DNA of 64,000 bases from Anatilimnocola floriformis. Lineage in GTDB: Bacteria; Planctomycetota; Planctomycetia; Pirellulales; Pirellulaceae. Positions within the stretch are counted from its first letter, which is position 1. The number at the start of each line of letters is the position of its first letter. The DNA lies in the NCBI RefSeq assembly GCF_024256385.1, contig NZ_JAMLFW010000002.1:1054001-1118000 (forward strand), read 5' to 3'. Both the position numbers and the translations under genes were made by a program. Shown piece after piece: positions 8,100 to 17,835 of this stretch. A model generated the notes under the pieces. That model was not told the origin of the DNA. It saw only the letters and a program-made list of their open reading frames with translations, and ran no database searches.

Positions 8100-10280
<2,181 letters not shown>

Positions 10281-10323
10281 GTAAAGAACCCCCTATATCC
10301 CAATACTTAGAAACCAGGAAACC

Positions 10324-10362
10324 GCCTTGGGGACGAAAACCCAATGGGTAAAGACCCAAGGC
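10324..10362 (-). promoter_or_regulatory. Hairpin in the 5' leader of the glutamine synthetase gene
   Basis: The 8-base arms GCCTTGGG (10324-10331) and CCCAAGGC (10355-10362) enclose a 23-base loop that itself contains CCCAATGGG. If transcription starts about 12 bases after the sigma-54-like -12 element, the outer stem begins at the very 5' end of the mRNA. It could stabilise the transcript or act as a leader regulator; nothing more can be said. Confidence 0.4.
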
Positions 10363-10372
10363 CCGGCGGAAT

Positions 10373-10388
10373 CGCACCTTCTGTGCCA
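10373..10388 (-). promoter_or_regulatory. Sigma-54 (-24/-12) promoter candidate for glutamine synthetase
   Basis: On the minus strand the sequence TGGCACAGAAGGTGCG matches the sigma-54 consensus TGGCAC-N5-TTGC at the -24 hexamer and has GG and GC exactly ten bases apart. It lies about 93 bases upstream of the GTG start, in the only sizeable leader of the nitrogen block. Sigma-54 control of glutamine synthetase is well established in other bacteria. No activator-binding site was identified. Confidence 0.55.
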
Positions 10389-10910
10389 ATCCCTGCCGCC
10401 GCTAGCATTCCGCTCAGCCGTGCGCCAAAACTGTTGCCAGATAACTACTTACTGCCGACGCTAATTTGTCTGTAGAAGTCGTTAAATGCTGTTTTTGCCC
10501 GCTTCCTTGGCAGCCGTGCACAAGAGCTGGGCAATTTGGGGAGAAGTGCTCGAAGAGCAAGCGCAAGCCATCGGCATGCGACGGCCTTTGTCACTCGATA
10601 AGCTCGCTCCGCCAAGCGCGCACACCGCGACCAGCGATGAACATAACGGCCAGCTAACCCTATTGAACACCCCCTCTTTCATACCCCCAGAATATAACAA
10701 GCGATCGAGATTTTCGAATCTGCTGTAAGTTGCTACAAGTAAACGTGTTACGCGCAAATCTGCCTGCAATATCGTGCTGAGGATATCACACTTTATTCTA
10801 GCTAAATCGGGTGGATTGAAATCAGCTCCTAACTCAGTAAACACCCAGTCACTGACAGCTCTGGTCTGACGTAAATCCGCCAAGTAGCCGTTCGCGACCG
10901 CGACGCTGTC
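10389..10910. other. Intergenic stretch without a recognisable gene
   Basis: Between the glutamine synthetase promoter and the REP cluster I see no credible coding region. The reading frames present are short, have poor composition, and show no ribosome-binding site. The section about 10670-10860 is richer in A+T than its surroundings. Confidence 0.5.
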
Positions 10911-10920
10911 GGCACACGCT

Positions 10921-10966
10921 GGCGACCACCGGCCTTGTGCCGGTGGGGCGATCACTGGTCAGCTAC
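10921..10966 (-). repeat. REP-like element, copy 1
   Basis: Minus-strand unit starting GTAGCTGACCAGTGATCG, followed by a hairpin with stem CCACCGGC/GCCGGTGG and a 5-base loop. The layout, a conserved GTAG, a spacer, then a stem-loop, is that of repetitive extragenic palindromes mobilised by Y1 transposases. Confidence 0.75.
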
Positions 10967-10992
10967 AACAAGTGACGCGAGAAAAACGCTTT

Positions 10993-11028
10993 CGCGACCA
11001 CGGGGTTCATCCCCGTGGAGCGATCACT
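10993..11028 (-). repeat. REP-like element, copy 2 (degenerate)
   Basis: Same hairpin design with different bases, CCACGGGG/CCCCGTGG, followed by AGCGATCACT. The GTAG end is lost. The paired base changes relative to the other copies keep the stem intact. Confidence 0.65.
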
Positions 11029-11040
11029 TTCCGCTTCCTC

Positions 11041-11085
11041 AAGCTGGTCAGTGAGGGCCCCATCGGCACAAGGCCGATGGTCGCC
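11041..11085 (+). repeat. REP-like element, copy 3
   Basis: Plus-strand unit AAGCTGGTCAGTGAGGGC followed by the stem CCATCGGC/GCCGATGG (11060-11067 with 11073-11080). GTAG is mutated to CAAG. It is inverted relative to copies 1 and 2. Confidence 0.65.
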
Positions 11086-11105
11086 GTGTCGATTGGTCCT
11101 TGCGG

Positions 11106-11150
11106 GTAGCTGTCCAGTGAACGCCCCACCGGCACGAGGCCGGTGGTCGC
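11106..11150 (+). repeat. REP-like element, copy 4
   Basis: Plus-strand unit starting GTAGCTGTCCAGTGAACG with stem CCACCGGC/GCCGGTGG (11126-11133 with 11139-11146). With copies 1-3 it makes a cluster of two inverted pairs in the intergenic space behind the transsulfuration gene. Confidence 0.75.
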
Positions 11151-11251
11151 GGTCACGCTCGCCAAAGTGCTGGAATATCGCTAACGCTCATTCCAGCGGG
11201 CCGTTGCCTGCCACCGCCACCACCGAATATGGAATATTCGGCGACGATAAA

Positions 11252-12433
11252 TCACGTCTGCATCAGCGCCGTGGCCAGCGAGCTGCAAACAAACTCCGGC
11301 GTCTCGGTCCCGACCGAAAGACGAATCGTCCCGCCGGTGATGCCGAGGGCGGCGCGACCTTCCGGGGTCAAGCCGCGATGACTGGTGGTTTCGGGATGGC
11401 TTAGCGTTGTCGAGAGTTCACCCAGCGAGGGACAAAACGGAATGTCCTTGGCTGCCGTGATGAATTTGTCGGCGGCGGCGCGGCCACCTTTCAATTGAAA
11501 CGCCACCATCGTGCCGAACTGCGGGCCGGTGGGGCCCACGAACTGCCGCTTGGCAATCGCGTGCTGAGGATGAACGGCCAGGCCCGGGTACTCGACGCGT
11601 TCCACTTCGCGGCGCTGCGATAAGAACTCTGCGGCGCGCAATGCATTTGAGCAGGCTCGTTCCAAGCGCAGATGAGCAGTCGCGAGTCCGCGCGCTGCCA
11701 ACCAGCAATCAAAAGGGGAAGCCGAAAAGCCCCAAGCGCTCACCACCTGTTTCACGCGCGGCCAAATGTCGGTGCGACAACCGAGATAACCGAGCAGCAC
11801 ATCGCTATGGCCGTTCAGCGTCTTCGTCAGGCTCTCCATCACGATGTCGGCGCCGAGCTCCAGCGGTTTGCAGACCAGCGGCGAGGCAAACGTGTTATCG
11901 ACCAGCAACCGCGCGCCGCCCCGATGCGTGATCTCGGCCAGCGCGGCGATGTCGGCGACCTGCAGCAGCGGATTGGCAATCGTCTCGGCAATCACGAGCT
12001 TCGTCTTCTCGTTCATCGCGGCAGCAACGGCGGCCAGATCGTTCGTATCGACAACAGTCAGCGAGATTCCGAGTCGCGAAGCTTCGGCATTCAACAACTG
12101 CAGCGTCTTGCCATACACACGACTCGCCGTGACGACATGTTCCCCCTGCGCGACCGTGGCCAGCAGCGGCACCGAGATCGCCGCCATGCCCGAGGCCACC
12201 ACCATGCCATGCGGCGCTTGCTCAAGTTCGTTCAACTTCGCCGCCAGCGCCGCGCCATTGGGGTGGCCATCGCGCTGATAGACATACCCCGGCTCCTGCC
12301 CACCGAGCATCGCATCGGCCTGCGCCGGCGATTCGCATTCCCACACGCTCGTCAAATAGAGAGGCGTGGCATGCGGCTGTGTGGCAAAGGTCTTTACCTG
12401 ATCAGGCCGCGGCAGAAAGTCATCGGGTTTCAT
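11252..12433 (-). CDS. Cys/Met-metabolism PLP-dependent enzyme (transsulfuration family)
   Basis: About 393 residues, the usual size for the cystathionine gamma-synthase / O-acyl-homoserine sulfhydrylase / methionine gamma-lyase family (fold type I PLP enzymes, cytoplasmic homotetramers). Visible: ASGMAAISVPLLA, the SRVYGKTLQL phosphate-binding region, LLVDNTFASP with the PLP-ring Asp, and the Schiff-base Lys in ESLTKTLNGHSD (about residue 205). The C-terminus has SLGELSTTLSHPETTSHRGL and IRLSVGTE, typical of the family. Which reaction it catalyses cannot be settled by eye. Start: ATG 12433, with a GTG six bases upstream as alternative; no clear ribosome-binding site. It stands alone on the minus strand next to the REP cluster. 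Confidence 0.9.
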   Translation of the reverse strand: MKPDDFLPRPDQVKTFATQPHATPLYLTSVWECESPAQADAMLGGQEPGYVYQRDGHPNGAALAAKLNELEQAPHGMVVASGMAAISVPLLATVAQGEHVVTASRVYGKTLQLLNAEASRLGISLTVVDTNDLAAVAAAMNEKTKLVIAETIANPLLQVADIAALAEITHRGGARLLVDNTFASPLVCKPLELGADIVMESLTKTLNGHSDVLLGYLGCRTDIWPRVKQVVSAWGFSASPFDCWLAARGLATAHLRLERACSNALRAAEFLSQRREVERVEYPGLAVHPQHAIAKRQFVGPTGPQFGTMVAFQLKGGRAAADKFITAAKDIPFCPSLGELSTTLSHPETTSHRGLTPEGRAALGITGGTIRLSVGTETPEFVCSSLATALMQT

Positions 12434-12569
12434 GGTCACGCCGTTCTAAGAGAGAACTATCAGGCAATCGACTCGCCTTTACTGAGCGACATGCCCGTAT
12501 GAAAGCTTACCAGCATTTCGGCTTGCTTTGCGCTGCGGCTCACATCGGCGAAATGCAAGCCACGCCATC

Positions 12570-12671
12570 ATGGCCAACGGCTGGACCGGCTGCGACACGA
12601 TCAACTTCACGACCAAAGATGTGGCCGCCCTGCAAGCATCGATCAAGGCCGAACCGGCCTACAGCAACTGA
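12570..12671 (+). other. Possible 33-codon ORF or gene remnant
   Basis: An open frame starting ATGGCC and encoding MANGWTGCDTINFTTKDV and a short tail ending AYSN has natural-looking composition, unlike the surrounding frames. It could be a tiny gene or the 3' remnant of a lost gene. There is no obvious ribosome-binding site and no recognised family. Confidence 0.2.
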
Positions 12672-12708
12672 GCGTCGACCGCCGTGCATAACGGATGTTG
12701 AAAGCAAA

Positions 12709-13293
12709 TCACTTCAATCCTGGCACCAGGCTCGCATCGTACTTCGCGCCGGCCGAGACCTGGATCATCGTGATCCGCATCTTCGTGGGGAAGAACTTTT
12801 CGTGGTCAGGCCGTTTGTGGGCATGACCATTTCCGCCGCTGTTGTCCTTGATCACCAGGTCCATCTGCTTGATCCCTTCCGTCCAGACAATTCCTTCGTT
12901 CTGCCAAAAGCTCTTCATCGAGACATCGGACTCGTACACTCCCTTTTCCTTGTACACCTTCGTACCGACGCAGCCGTAGCCACCTTTCTCTTTATCGCCC
13001 TTGTTCGGGATGTAGCACAGCGTCCACATCGTGGCTTCGCTCCCTTCGGGCTTCTCGAGCACCTCGGCCCGAATGTGCACCGTGCCGTTGCGATAATCGA
13101 CCGGCGCCGTCCAATCCTTCGGCCGTTCTTTATTCAGCATGTCTCCCTTCACGTAGTAATGCGACTTGCTCGGCTTCGAGTTATCGGCATCGTCCTTCGT
13201 AAAAGTGAACGTCACATCAAACAGCACAAACTGCTCGGCGTGGGCGAGAGAAGCGGTAAGGATCAGAACGGCGAATGTCAGGTATCGGAGCAT
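12709..13293 (-). CDS. Secreted hypothetical protein
   Basis: A 194-residue protein with a signal peptide (MLRYLTFAVLILTASLAHA, cut before EQFV). The mature part is beta-rich with alternating charged turns: FVLFDVTFTFTKDD, HYYVKGDMLN, TVHIRAEVLEKPEG, TLCYIPNKGDKEKGGYGC (two cysteines), and an N-terminal-to-C-terminal run ending RITMIQVSAGAKYDASLVPGLK. I do not recognise it. Start: ATG 13293 after CGAGG with seven bases spacing; the frame is open further upstream without signal-peptide logic. It is probably periplasmic or surface-exposed. It lies between the transsulfuration gene and the REP array. Confidence 0.72.
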   Translation of the reverse strand: MLRYLTFAVLILTASLAHAEQFVLFDVTFTFTKDDADNSKPSKSHYYVKGDMLNKERPKDWTAPVDYRNGTVHIRAEVLEKPEGSEATMWTLCYIPNKGDKEKGGYGCVGTKVYKEKGVYESDVSMKSFWQNEGIVWTEGIKQMDLVIKDNSGGNGHAHKRPDHEKFFPTKMRITMIQVSAGAKYDASLVPGLK

Positions 13294-13394
13294 GGTTGAC
13301 CTCGGGAGAAAGTAATCGGTCGTCAGTATAACAACTACGAAGCACTCAGCGCGCATTCTGGAAGCGCACGAGTTCTCCGTTTCCTTCTATCGAT

Positions 13395-13603
13395 CTGCGT
13401 CTTCGAACCGCCTCCCGTGACCACTGGGCTTGCCCCAGTGGAACGCTCACTGGCCAGCTACCCACCTGCGTCTTCGAACTGCCTCCCGTGACCACTGGGC
13501 TTGTCCCAGTGGAACGCTCACTGGCCAGCTACCCACCTGCGTCTTCGAACCGCCTCCCGTGACCACTGGGCTTGCCCCAGTGGAACGCTCACTGGCCAGC
13601 TAC
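13395..13603 (-). repeat. Three tandem 71-bp REP-like units
   Basis: Three direct copies (13395-13465, 13466-13536, 13537-13603), nearly identical, each with CTGCGTCTTCGAAC, the stem CCACTGGG/CCCAGTGG, then GAACGCTCACTGGCCAGCTAC. On the minus strand each unit begins GTAGCTGGCCAGTGAGCG. The last GTAG overlaps the stop codon of the adjacent transposase gene. Same family as the 11-kb cluster and the copy at 14427. Confidence 0.9.
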
Positions 13604-14397
13604 AAGTTCGGCAACCGATTCCGAATGGCCTGGTGATCGTAAGGACCGAATGTACCCAGATAGAAACTGCTTTCAAAAACCCGTTTCATGCCGTGCGCAA
13701 AGGCCAAATTGTTCATGAGACTCAAGGCGACGTCTTGCGGGATTTCATCGACATCGCAGCCCAGCAAAATGTGAAGATGATTCGCCACAATGCCCACTCG
13801 CGATAATAGCCAGCCTTTCTTTCGGCAAGCGCGGATGATCATTTCGCGCGTGGTCACGAGCCACTCCTCGCGAACATCGTTCAAGTGGTCAGCGTTTTCA
13901 AGAACGATGTGCAGGCTATTGGTGAACCTGCCGTGCGCGCTGGACCGCAGTTCGTCCAACAGCACGCCTGAGTCGTGGAATTGAACTTGCTTCAACCGCT
14001 CAACAACTCGCGCGTCGGCTTGTGGATGATGTTCGACCTGCCGGCCTACGTATGATTGCAAGACTTCGTTGTTTGCCGATCCAACACTAGTGATTGCGTA
14101 GTGCCGCCTCCACAACTGAGGAATGGTATTGCGTAACAGGTATTGCAATCGGCCCTTGATCGAACGAACGACTGCGGCAGGCGCGACATCCGGACGTGAA
14201 CTTAGAAAGAACTGCCCGGCGGCATTCTCGACGGAGGAGAATTCCAATAGCCGGACACCATCGGCTTCGACGGCGAGAGATAACGCTTCGCGCCATTCGG
14301 ACGCGGCGGGAATTGGACATTGGCTAAAGACGCTTAGGGACCAGTGGAGCTGATAAGCGACGCTGCAGTTTGCTGCGATGTATTGCGGTTCTGGCAT
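13600..14397 (-). CDS. Double-domain Y1 (IS200-like, REP-associated) transposase with split active site
   Basis: A 265-residue protein that reads as two Y1 transposase domains in tandem. Domain 1 (about 10-125): YQLHWSLSVFS, SRPDVAPAAVVRSIKGRL, LWRRHYAITSVG and SYVGRQ with the YxxxQ nucleophile motif (Tyr116, Gln120). Its HUH position reads AGQ (60-62). Domain 2 (about 158-265): SLHIVLEN, then ANHLHILLGC with an intact HUH (His207, His209) and FESSFYLGTFG, but Arg261 stands where the Tyr should be. The two halves therefore complement each other. Start: ATG 14397; the frame continues upstream into the REP element and is unlikely to be used. The gene lies between inverted REP copies with GTAG facing it on both sides, as in REP-associated (RAYT) transposases. 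The stop TAG is part of a REP GTAG. Confidence 0.82.
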   Translation of the reverse strand: MPEPQYIAANCSVAYQLHWSLSVFSQCPIPAASEWREALSLAVEADGVRLLEFSSVENAAGQFFLSSRPDVAPAAVVRSIKGRLQYLLRNTIPQLWRRHYAITSVGSANNEVLQSYVGRQVEHHPQADARVVERLKQVQFHDSGVLLDELRSSAHGRFTNSLHIVLENADHLNDVREEWLVTTREMIIRACRKKGWLLSRVGIVANHLHILLGCDVDEIPQDVALSLMNNLAFAHGMKRVFESSFYLGTFGPYDHQAIRNRLPNL

Positions 14398-14426
14398 AAT
14401 TCCGTCTTCACGTCTTTGCCGGCATT

Positions 14427-14474
14427 GTAGCTGGCCAGTGAGCGTTCCACTGGGACGAGCCCAGTGGTCACGGG
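14427..14474 (+). repeat. REP-like element upstream of the Y1 transposase
   Basis: Plus-strand unit beginning GTAGCTGGCCAGTGAGCG, then the stem CCACTGGG/CCCAGTGG. It is inverted relative to the three tandem units on the other side of the transposase gene, and starts 29 bases upstream of that gene's ATG. Confidence 0.85.
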
Positions 14475-14587
14475 AGCGGGAGGCGTTCGATGACCACAGC
14501 GGCAAGCCCGATGGTCATGCCGTTACAAATCACTACGCTAATGGGCAGACCTAAACGAAAAATCCTCTTCACGCAGCGGGAGTTACC

Positions 14588-15703
14588 ATGAGCGGCAAAA
14601 AGTGGAATGTGGCCATGATCGGACTCGGCTTTGGCGCCGAGTTCATTCCGATTTATCAAGCCCATCCGAATGCGAACGTCTACGCCATCTGCCAGCGCAA
14701 CACGGAGAAGATGAACGTCGTCGGCGATCGCTTCAAAATCGAGAAGCGGTACACCAGCTACGACGACGTGCTGAAGGATCCGAATGTCGACTTCGTCCAC
14801 ATCAACAGCCCGATTCCCGATCACGCGTCGATGAGCCTCGCCGCGCTGAAGGCCGGTAAGCACGTGATGTGCACGGTGCCGATGGCGACGACGATTGAAG
14901 ATTGCAAAGCGATTGTCGAGATGGTGAAGAAGACCGGCCTCAAGTACATGATGGCCGAGACGGTCGTCTATGCCCGCGAATATCTGTTCATCAAGGAGAT
15001 GTATCAGAAGGGTGAGCTCGGCAAGATTCAGCACCTCGCGGCGTCGCACCCGCAAGATATGGACGGCTGGCCAGATTATTGGGAACGGATGATTCCGATG
15101 CACTACGCCACGCACGTGGTGAGCCCTTGCCTCGGCTTGGTCGATGGCAAAGCCGAGTACGTCAGCTGCTTCGGCAGCGGCGCCGTGCGCGACGATATCG
15201 CGAAGAAATCGGGCAACAAGTTCGCCGTCGAGAGCTGCCACATCAAGGTGAAGGATCAGGACGTGGTCGCGCACATCTGGCGGTTTCTGTACGACGTCGC
15301 GCGGCAGTATCGCGAGAGCTTTGATGTCTATGGCACCAAAAAGTCCTTCGAGTGGACGCTCGTCGAAGGGGAGCCGCACGTGCTGCACACGGCGAAGAAG
15401 CCGGAGCACGAGATTGCCTCGAAGATCGAAGTGACGGACTTTGCACACCTGCTGCCCGAGCCGATTCGGAAGTTTACGAAGAGCATTCAAGATGCCGATC
15501 ACCTGTCGTTCATCCAGGGCGGCGGCCACGGCGGTTCGCACCCGCACCTGGTGCATGAGATGATCTCGGCGCTGTCGGAGAATCGCGATCCTCGGCCCAA
15601 TGCGGTGACGGCCGCCAACTGGACCTGCGTTGGCATCTGCGCTCACGAGTCGGCGCTGAAGGGTGGCGAGATCGTACGGTTGCCGGAGTTTACGCTGGGT
15701 TAG
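14588..15703 (+). CDS. Gfo/Idh/MocA family oxidoreductase
   Basis: A 371-residue NAD(P)-dependent sugar dehydrogenase-like protein. The N-terminal Rossmann fold has NVAMIGLGFGAEFIPIY (GxGxxA-like dinucleotide loop, residues 7-23) and the family's DFVHINSPIPDHASMSLAALKAGKHV block. The usual EKP catalytic-Lys motif reads CTVPMA (about residue 95-100), so the canonical Lys is missing. The C-terminal domain contains HPQDMDGWPDYWERMIPMHYATHVV and HESALKGGEIVRLPEF. There is no signal peptide, unlike many planctomycete paralogues. ATG start at 14588 with GGGAG shortly upstream. The substrate is unknown. A hairpin terminator follows. Confidence 0.92.
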   Translation: MSGKKWNVAMIGLGFGAEFIPIYQAHPNANVYAICQRNTEKMNVVGDRFKIEKRYTSYDDVLKDPNVDFVHINSPIPDHASMSLAALKAGKHVMCTVPMATTIEDCKAIVEMVKKTGLKYMMAETVVYAREYLFIKEMYQKGELGKIQHLAASHPQDMDGWPDYWERMIPMHYATHVVSPCLGLVDGKAEYVSCFGSGAVRDDIAKKSGNKFAVESCHIKVKDQDVVAHIWRFLYDVARQYRESFDVYGTKKSFEWTLVEGEPHVLHTAKKPEHEIASKIEVTDFAHLLPEPIRKFTKSIQDADHLSFIQGGGHGGSHPHLVHEMISALSENRDPRPNAVTAANWTCVGICAHESALKGGEIVRLPEFTLG

Positions 15704-15710
15704 GATGACT

Positions 15711-15757
15711 ACCACAGAGGCATTTCTCTGCGTACTCTGTGTCTCTGTGGTCATTTT
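15711..15757 (+). terminator. Intrinsic terminator-like hairpin after the oxidoreductase gene
   Basis: ACCACAGAG (15711-15719) pairs with CTCTGTGGT (15743-15751), with a 23-base loop and CATTTTT following on the plus strand. It begins eight bases after the oxidoreductase stop. Confidence 0.5.
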
Positions 15758-15840
15758 TCTGCAACCCCGGCACGCCAGCTGCATTCCTCGCGTCAGCCTC
15801 CAAATTGGGGGCCTCCTGTCGCACCCTGAGGTTTGCAACC

Positions 15841-17835
15841 ATGAGGCTGGCACTGTTTTTGGCGGGCGCGTGGTTTGCGCTCGCTCACCTTGGCGTTTCG
15901 GCTGCCGAGTCGACTCCCGAACTGCGCGATACCGCAGGAAATCGCCATCGCTTCGATCGCATTCACGATAAGAGTGCGAAGGCGACAGTCTTTGTTTTTC
16001 TCGATGACAACTGCCCCGACGCCAACCGCTACGTCGATACACTTCGGAAATTGCACGATCGCTACAACGCCTTTGAAATGGATCGCCGCGGCAAACCGAT
16101 TCGCAAAAATGCGGAGGGCAAGTGGGAACATTCGGGGCGACAAGGAGACGCGATCAGCTTCATCGGCGTGTATAGCCGTGGGCCCTTTTTGAGTATTCGC
16201 GAAATCGCTCGTCACGCGCTACGGCAGAATATTCCGTTTCGCGTGATGCACGACGCCGAGCAGGAGTTGATGACGAAATTTGGTGTAACGAATTACACCG
16301 AAGTTCGCGTCTGGGATCCGCAAGCCAAACGTGTCATCTATTCGGGGCCCATCGACGATCAATATCAGCGCGGCGCTGGCAAACCCGAGGCGAAAAATCT
16401 GTTGCTGCAAGAAGTGCTCGATCGCATCGTTGCCGGCGAAAAGGTTGATGAGATCGACGAGCCGGTGAATTCTGGTTGTCCGATACCGAAGCTCGCCGAT
16501 GCTCAGTTCGAACCGTTCACGTTCTACGAAGATATCGAACCGATTCTGCAACGACGTTGTCAGGAGTGCCATCGCGAAGGTGGCGCTGGGCCGTTTGAGT
16601 TGATGTCGCTACGCGACTTGCAGGACCACGCCGAGATCATCGATCAGGTGGTGCACGATCGCACCATGCCGCCGTTTCCCGGTGATTCGCCGCATGAGCT
16701 CGAGCATGATCGTCGGCTGACGAAGGACGAATGGTACAAGCTGATCTCTTGGCTTCGCGGCGAACGGAAGCTGGGAGATCGCGCCAAGCGGCCCGCGCCG
16801 CGCGAGTTCTCGCAGACGAAAGAATGGCAGATCGGCAAACCCGACTTCGTCGCCAAGATGGGTCAGCCGTTTCAAGTGCCGAAGGACGGGATCGTCGATT
16901 ACGTCTACGTGCCGATTCGTGTGCCTGATGAGGTTCGCGAAAAGTACGGGCACGACGGCAAGCTCTATGTGCAAGCCATCGAGTCGCGGCCCGGCGCCCA
17001 TCCGCAGGTCGTGCATCATATTCAAGTGCATGAGTACCACGGCAAGATCAACGAAGCCACGCAATCCGCGGCAGGCGGTGGAGCAGCCGTCGGCTTGAAC
17101 GCGCTCGATTTGCTCTTCATGTATGGCCCTTCGATTCTCGGCGCCCGCCGCCTCGGCGGTTATGAACCGGGCGATCCCGACAACGCCCGCACCTTCGATC
17201 CGCAATTCGGCACGGTGCTCGGCGGCGACATCATTCTCGAGATGCATCTCACTCCCGACGGCAAACGTTCCTATCCCGTGCAGTCCGATGTCGGTTTAAT
17301 TTTTTCGAAAGAGCCGCCGAAACGACTCATTCAAACGAACTACTTCTTCACCAAACGTGGCAACTTTCTCGTCCCTGCCAACGTGAAGAACCACACCATT
17401 CAAGGGCTGTTCCCGTTTCAGAAGCATGTGCGCATCGAGAGTGTGCGCGGTCACGGCCATTATGCGTGCACGCGACTGAAGCTCGAAAAGATCGGTGCTG
17501 CCGACGTGACGATCGCCGATCTGGAAGATCGCAAGCAGCACTGGCAGTTGCGGGGCGAGACGCTCCTGGAAGTGCCGAATTGGGATTTCAACTGGCAAGT
17601 GACTTACAAGTTCAAGGAGCCGCTGGTCGTGCTCAACGACGAAGCCGTGCTCGGCACCGGTTTCTACGACAACACCGAGCACAACCTGCGACGCGTCGGC
17701 AAAGGGCCGATCGAAGACATCGTGTGGGGACAGCAAACGTTTCACGAGATGTTCAACGTCCTCTTCTTGTATGAAGAGCTGGAGGACGATCATCCCCTCG
17801 TGATCGAAGCGAAGCGCAAGCGAGAGCAACCATGA
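15841..17835 (+). CDS. Redoxin - cytochrome c - copper monooxygenase-like fusion
   Basis: A 664-residue exported protein (signal peptide MRLALFLAGAWFALAHLGVSA). Residues about 25-200: thioredoxin-like redoxin domain with FVFLDDNCPDANRY, one Cys (Cys58) in a CPDA motif in place of CxxC. Residues about 228-310: c-type cytochrome domain with RRCQECHREGG (Cys240, Cys243, His244) and an axial Met candidate in TMPPF. Residues about 350-650: domain like the PHM/DBM copper type II ascorbate-dependent monooxygenases, with AHPQVVHHIQVHEYHG and ILEMHLTPDG as copper-ligand candidates. Such fusions occur in planctomycetes; the substrate is unknown. Start: ATG 15841, with GAGG nine bases upstream. Its TGA overlaps the ATG of the next gene (ATGA), implying translational coupling. 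Confidence 0.87.
   Translation: MRLALFLAGAWFALAHLGVSAAESTPELRDTAGNRHRFDRIHDKSAKATVFVFLDDNCPDANRYVDTLRKLHDRYNAFEMDRRGKPIRKNAEGKWEHSGRQGDAISFIGVYSRGPFLSIREIARHALRQNIPFRVMHDAEQELMTKFGVTNYTEVRVWDPQAKRVIYSGPIDDQYQRGAGKPEAKNLLLQEVLDRIVAGEKVDEIDEPVNSGCPIPKLADAQFEPFTFYEDIEPILQRRCQECHREGGAGPFELMSLRDLQDHAEIIDQVVHDRTMPPFPGDSPHELEHDRRLTKDEWYKLISWLRGERKLGDRAKRPAPREFSQTKEWQIGKPDFVAKMGQPFQVPKDGIVDYVYVPIRVPDEVREKYGHDGKLYVQAIESRPGAHPQVVHHIQVHEYHGKINEATQSAAGGGAAVGLNALDLLFMYGPSILGARRLGGYEPGDPDNARTFDPQFGTVLGGDIILEMHLTPDGKRSYPVQSDVGLIFSKEPPKRLIQTNYFFTKRGNFLVPANVKNHTIQGLFPFQKHVRIESVRGHGHYACTRLKLEKIGAADVTIADLEDRKQHWQLRGETLLEVPNWDFNWQVTYKFKEPLVVLNDEAVLGTGFYDNTEHNLRRVGKGPIEDIVWGQQTFHEMFNVLFLYEELEDDHPLVIEAKRKREQP

Follow-up and report, generated by a model that had tools for sequence, protein, structure and literature searches.

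A tandem double-domain Y1 transposase with complementary losses in its two halves, flanked by inverted REP hairpins in a planctomycete

INTRODUCTION

Can two Y1 transposase domains, fused in one chain and each lacking what the other keeps, make up one active site? In the TnpA protein of IS608, one subunit supplies His64, His66 and Asp61 to hold the metal, and the other supplies Gln131. The attacking Tyr127 comes from the same subunit as Gln131, and the site is assembled in trans, in a dimer (PMC5934647, excerpt). The question is raised by a gene in a 64,000-nucleotide stretch of DNA from Anatilimnocola floriformis, the whole of which is called the window here. An earlier note, made from the letters of the window, had read this gene as a tandem Y1 transposase whose N-terminal half keeps the nucleophile, whose C-terminal half keeps the HUH (HxH) motif, and which is flanked by a REP family in inverted orientation.

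RESULTS

Two Y1 domains with complementary losses

The gene, its two halves and the residues at issue are as follows, in window positions.

13600 to 14397, minus strand: double-domain Y1 transposase gene, 265 aa (open frame, Pfam, AlphaFold2)
14023 to 14397, minus strand: N-half (residues 1-125), a Y1 domain that holds Tyr116 and Gln120 but has lost HxH (Pfam Y1_Tnp profile 27-121)
14212 to 14220, minus strand: A60-G61-Q62 where the N-half would be expected to carry HxH (0 of 67 readable homologues have it)
14050 to 14052, minus strand: Tyr116, presumed nucleophile (kept in 68 of 68 homologues)
14038 to 14040, minus strand: Gln120, presumed metal ligand by analogy with IS608 Q131 (kept in 68 of 68)
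13603 to 13950, minus strand: C-half (residues 150-265), a Y1 domain that holds His207/His209 and has a shortened Tyr helix (Pfam Y1_Tnp profile 7-68)
13777 to 13779, minus strand: His207 (kept in 68 of 68)
13771 to 13773, minus strand: His209 (kept in 68 of 68)
13615 to 13617, minus strand: Arg261 in the C-half nucleophile position (alignment)

The 265-aa chain carries two consecutive Y1 (IS200/IS605 TnpA) domains, matched by Pfam Y1_Tnp in two stretches. Against this model (PF01797) the full protein scores 43.3 bits, above the cut-off of 23, which places it in the superfamily, and 27 of 27 family members match at E<=1. When the halves were scanned alone, the N-half matched profile positions 27-121 of 121, the Tyr-bearing end, with an E value of 7.1e-7; the C-half matched positions 7-68, the HxH-bearing part, with an E value of 0.0034 and 17.9 bits, below the curated 23. 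The earlier note had given the coordinates, the strand and the residues correctly: Tyr116 in a YxxxQ motif and AGQ in the N-half, His207/His209 and Arg261 in the C-half. We verified the equivalences (60/62 to HxH, 261 to Tyr) by aligning 30 single-domain Y1 proteins with 30 N-halves and 30 C-halves, and they hold. Hence, contrary to what is usual in Y1 proteins, HxH and Tyr lie on different domains here; a complete Y-x-x-x-Q is found in the N-half only, in 68 of 68 homologues.

Conservation of the split pattern

The search for relatives that had been suggested yielded 68 distinct near-full-length fused homologues that share the split pattern. They are open reading frames with one alignment of more than 180 profile positions, identical rows removed (61, plus 7 later); some are not full-length (such as L026, L135, L147 and L244), and interrupted copies are excluded. 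Since the candidates were found with the family's own profile, relatives without the fused form could be missed by this census.

Tyr116, Gln120, His207 and His209 are each present in 68 of 68 homologues. HxH in the N-half is found in none of the 67 readable ones (there is 1 gap among the 68); position 60 is never His, while position 62 is Gln in 51 of the 68 fused proteins and His in 1. These counts bear out the complementary losses first read from a single chain, and no readable homologue (0 of 67) has HxH in both halves, let alone both motifs in each. Because the catalytic residues are so conserved and the N-half HxH is uniformly missing, chance resemblance is ruled out.

The C-half nucleophile position was traced in 64 of the 68 homologues, 12 of which end short of it. 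Among the four that were untraced, L143 and L144 are without Tyr by eye, and the other two are cut short. Tyr occupies the position in 10 of the 64: nine belong to one divergent clade (9 of 68: L145, L146, L147, L148, L149, L151, L152, L095 and L250) and the last is the isolated L160, whose Tyr is missing in L159, its 96% identical sister. None of the 10 has Gln four residues further. The divergent clade has a C-half Y-x-x-x-W together with one HxH, so that Trp stands in place of the metal-ligand Gln, four residues past the C-half Tyr. Replacement of the C-half Tyr, as the earlier note had described it, is therefore true of this protein, which has Arg, but the loss is not universal in the family: a clade of 9 of the 68 keeps a second Tyr.

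Fold, descent and selection

Might the gene be a single-domain gene with a degenerate tail? AlphaFold2, supplied with 27 homologues, predicted two successive Y1 folds for the full chain, the last helix being short (mean pLDDT 93.3, pTM 0.91); the prediction is of two domains, as had been anticipated, and not of one. A Foldseek search returned IS200/IS605 transposases (2ec2, 2f4f, ISHp608 and ISDra2) and TnpAREP 4er8, while the top three rows by E-value were unrelated designed-cage folds with TM-scores of <=0.31. When aligned to solved structures, the Sulfolobus transposases pair their second half with the N-half and their first half with the C-half. In single-domain Y1 proteins, the matches to the family profile come in the order C-half, then N-half; hence, the two retained parts jointly make up one transposase. 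The two-domain fold and the profile order rule out a single-domain gene with a degenerate tail. For the divergent member L149, AlphaFold2 with seven sequences predicted the same general order of elements at lower confidence (pLDDT 76.9, pTM 0.77), with both Tyr helices in stretches below 50 pLDDT.

We built an unrooted tree of 30 N-halves and 30 C-halves, from 30 of 61 fused proteins, together with 30 single domains. The N-halves lay together to one side of a branch with an SH-aLRT of 94; the same was true of the C-halves, at 89. The tree is only moderately resolved (124 columns, with 40 of 87 inner branches open); at that resolution it supports a single old fusion, after which both halves would have travelled together.

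Of the 23 pairs listed at >=74% identity, which share members, 22 had a dN/dS of 0.07-0.26; the exception, L145/L147, gave 0.67. pN was lower than pS in both halves of each pair. Both halves look to be under purifying selection.

REP hairpins at the locus and in the genome

The window holds these REP copies in and around the locus.

10917 to 10966, minus strand: REP, one of an inverted (REPIN-like) pair lying away from the gene, subtype CCACCGGC..GCCGGTGG
11106 to 11155, plus strand: REP, partner of the copy at 10917 to 10966, the two GTAG feet face to face across 139 bp
13412 to 13461, minus strand: REP copy, tandem, 71-nt period
13483 to 13532, minus strand: REP copy, tandem, 71-nt period
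13554 to 13603, minus strand: REP copy, GTAG foot directed at the gene end and overlapping it
14427 to 14476, plus strand: REP copy, inverted, GTAG foot towards the gene start

On its 3' side the gene has three direct copies and on its 5' side one inverted copy, and the GTAG of each of the four points towards the gene. The gene's TAG stop is part of the GTAG foot of the adjoining REP (13600-13603); at another homologue (L006), a REP likewise starts at the gene end. The REP family that had been noticed at this gene is thus real, with 3 + 1 copies in inverted orientation, and it is found elsewhere in the genome: inverted GTAG-foot REPs that both flank the gene and occur away from it are the trait of a REPtron. 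Matches to GTAGCTGNCCAGTGA in the genome number 15 when exact and 28 with <=1 mismatch; with <=2 mismatches there are 87, not far above the 51 of a reversed control.

The REPs fall into two main stem subtypes and often form inverted pairs; the pair at 10917-11155 belongs to the second subtype. We selected 35 copies (34 distinct) with a readable hairpin from part of the genomic matches, leaving out L195, L199 and one copy in L197; 98.2% of their stem cells are paired, a percentage that this choice favors. Compensatory double changes were seen in four of the eight stem pairs, and double-changed cells numbered 34 compared to 11.8 in shuffles. Two of the five measures were without clear excess over shuffles: the number of pairs with double changes (4 versus 2.9, with 44 of 500 shuffles as high) and the number of further pair types (6 versus 6.4, with 447 of 500 as high).

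REPs and the transposase across genomes

Does the REP family accompany the gene in other genomes? The REP pattern was found in 24 of 40 transposase-positive genomes and in 10 of 159 negative ones (Fisher p 5.7e-13, uncorrected for genome relatedness); 16 of the 40 positive genomes are without the tested pattern. A reversed control pattern occurred in 5 of 40 positive and 17 of 159 negative genomes, for a total of 26 matches in 22 of 199 genomes, so single REP-pattern matches can be due to chance. The pattern was designed after the flanks of the fused family had been inspected, and copies beside the gene count in its favor. REP presence goes with gene presence over the 199 genomes.

Hairpins near the gene were counted at 63 of the 68 homologues, the 5 with short flanks being omitted. 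By strict detection, 93 GTAG-hairpins, among which tandem copies are not independent, face the gene and 19 face away, compared to 3.5 facing in shuffles; a facing hairpin occurs at 28 of the 63 homologues, on both sides at 17. Loose detection finds them at 53 of 63, with 233 facing, 126 away and 56.8 in shuffles. At six loci of the divergent clade that we examined, long inverted repeats surround the gene in every case, and GTAG or TAG stands beside a hairpin in the arms of the five loci whose arms were printed.

One genome, G083 (L210-L220), has 51 REP-pattern matches and no full-length fused homologue at E<=10. Many of these matches are arranged as inverted pairs, and most of the 11 pairs fetched enclose a long palindrome. 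These elements are MITE-like and without a visible transposase partner.

Distribution and copies

The protein has matches in 40 of the 199 genomes of its family group, with 1 to 7 per positive genome. A 27-member profile, for which six candidates were scored per genome, has matches in at least 73 of 396 genomes of the order and at least 29 of 392 genomes of a phylum sample. Many of the weaker profile matches, among those fetched, are ordinary single-domain Y1 proteins; long fused matches in the phylum sample were seen only in G000, G259, G312 and G327 among the matches listed. Two conserved peptides of a close subset, sought in a species-genome collection, gave 20 loci, 19 in records named as planctomycetes and 1 (L138) in a record named as an Acidobacteria bin; two of these loci (L135 and L140) are cut by contig ends.

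The genome under study has 2 copies of the gene, 41% identical to each other. The paralogue (L002, G000:C2:1226037-1226801) lies about 158 kb away and shares the split pattern; the hairpin that faces it differs. An empty site was sought in G053, a genome of the same genus, where a 5.7-kb stretch matches only the neighbor gene, from 14585 on. With 2 own-genome copies at 41% identity and no empty site in G053, we see no sign of recent movement. Carriage by a plasmid or virus was considered and rejected: one weak plasmid match, annotated as an IS200/IS605 transposase, covers 22% of the query, and no viral relative was found among 14 stretches matching a pattern. No defence-system model matched at E<=1, and Rfam gave nothing at gathering score within 10000-16000.

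Several copies are interrupted close to the inter-domain linker (L163, L165, L166, L168 and L249 (G124)), by causes that differ; in the first four, the two pieces still hold Tyr, Gln and HxH. Further interrupted copies are L028 and L029. Could there be a two-gene form? We rejected this candidate: the interruptions near the linker differ in their means, and we take these to be presumably decaying copies. In a Planctomycetales MAG (L136), a fused gene has more fragments of the same family 3' of it.

DISCUSSION

How might such a chain work? We think it probable that the protein is a single-chain pseudo-dimer with one composite site of HUH and Tyr, which nicks and rejoins REP hairpins. The Tyr/Gln helix of IS608 works with the HxH of the other subunit, so the two losses seen here remove one site of the dimer and leave the other whole. 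By this account, an ancestral IS200/IS605-type TnpA gene would have been duplicated and fused head to tail, giving one chain that folds like a TnpA dimer. One dimer site would have been retained, made of the HxH of the C-half and the Tyr/Gln helix of the N-half; the other would have been lost with the N-half HxH and, in most members, the C-half Tyr/Gln helix. The result would be one nucleophile and one metal site per chain. We infer that the N-half Tyr helix runs via the linker into the C-half that it would serve, while the shortened C-half helix would have served the lost site. The data suggest that the N-half HxH was lost before the C-half Gln, and the C-half Tyr last.

As for the substrate, the enzyme would most likely recognize single-stranded REP hairpins through the GTAG foot and the hairpin. 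It would nick beside the hairpin, forming a 5'-phosphotyrosine on Tyr116, and the strand would then be passed to a 3'-OH. In so doing it may spread or maintain REP/REPIN copies as a REP-associated (RAYT-like) transposase. Nicking, rejoining and spreading of REPs by the fused enzyme are proposed by analogy with TnpAREP, which uses a GTAG motif and a palindrome (PMC8266576, excerpt).

Perhaps the fused chains themselves dimerize? The N-half Tyr helix of one chain would then serve the C-half HxH of the other, giving four domains with two composite sites, and both element ends would be cut in one complex, as in IS608. The residue pattern fits such an assembly equally, the trans sites of the IS608 TnpA dimer are a precedent for it (PMC5934647, excerpt), and REPs often occur in inverted pairs. 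Nevertheless, the single chain is predicted with high pTM as a compact two-domain unit, its second Y1 domain may already supply the dimer surface, and E. coli TnpAREP appears to be monomeric (PMC6006769, excerpt). We regard dimerization of fused chains as unlikely.

It is also conceivable that the protein has been domesticated into a catalytically dead REP binder, a regulator or structural factor. The 1 to 7 matches in positive genomes are few, as for a host gene, and both halves look to be under purifying selection. However, a mere binder has no need of the four residues of one site, which are invariant in 68 of 68 homologues even though the redundant HxH is gone; we find this very improbable. 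That the whole pattern is an artefact, a chance resemblance or a decaying fused gene, is hardly credible: some copies are indeed interrupted (L028, L029, L163, L165, L166 and L168), but 68 near-full-length homologues with invariant residues, a confident fold and low dN/dS speak against it.

If one composite site per chain is the right reading, the family matters in several ways. It is a natural test of whether one composite site suffices for hairpin processing, an asymmetric enzyme already available for study or as a tool, and a case in which the suggested order of losses can be tested. A Y2 logic is that of phiX174 gpA and IS91. It is a doubtful idea that fusion and complementary loss made a one-chain, one-site transposase from a two-site homodimer, by a different road to TnpAREP-like REP processing, and that the divergent clade, with one metal site and two alternating tyrosines, re-invented this Y2 logic from Y1 parts.

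How does the fused protein compare with known transposases? With the TnpA proteins of IS200/IS605 (IS608, ISDra2 and Sulfolobus IS200) it has in common the Y1 fold, HxH, Y-x-x-x-Q and probably a composite site from two domains. Those proteins are dimers of chains of about 130-160 aa with two sites, whereas the fused protein, a single chain of 265 aa, carries one set of residues, with one HxH and one Y-x-x-x-Q per two domains, and lies beside REPs. It scores 43.5 bits where the NCBIfam IS200 equivalog cut-off is 55. The trans arrangement of IS608 is known from dimer structures (PMC5934647, excerpt); here, one of the two sites seems to have been fixed in evolution and the other removed.

With TnpAREP/RAYT proteins (E. 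coli, Stenotrophomonas and Marinomonas) the fused protein shares inverted GTAG-foot palindromes adjoining the gene, the REPtron arrangement, and probably one site per chain (PMC8266576 and PMC6006769, excerpts). They differ in having a single Y1 domain, the E. coli protein being monomeric, and the class 2 RAYT Y motifs end in N-P (such as YIHYNP) where the fused protein has Y-x-x-x-Q (PMC6006769, excerpt). The NCBIfam RAYT (class 2) model NF047646 has no match to this 265-aa protein at E<=1; among 27 members it hits 8, all weakly (best E 5.2e-5).

TnpA class 3 of Quentin et al. 2018, as described in the excerpted text of PMC6006769, is rare, repeat-associated and found mainly in Planctomycetes, Acidobacteria and Proteobacteria; its Y..Q motif is of the class 1 kind, and 5 of its 10 founding members are without conserved HuH or Y motifs. 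Its median length is 178 aa, it has Y and four residues before Q, and its REP foot is CnGA; the fused family has Y-x-x-x-Q in 68 of 68 members and a GTAG foot. With motif and foot both different from those given in the excerpt, we reject membership in class 3. Fused members could have escaped that survey, which set aside a few proteins longer than expected as gene fusions or annotation errors (PMC6006769, excerpt). GTAG repeats have been reported in the PVC superphylum, and hence GTAG REPs in planctomycetes are not new in themselves (PMC3733652, excerpt). In a search of the open literature, with most subscription papers outside its scope, we did not find a tandem Y1 transposase with complementary losses described. 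With this family, REP-associated transposases come to include a fused chain that has Y-x-x-x-Q and a length excluded from a main survey (PMC6006769, excerpt). We conclude that the family is a conserved variant among REP-associated Y1 transposases, with what appears to be one split active site per fused chain.
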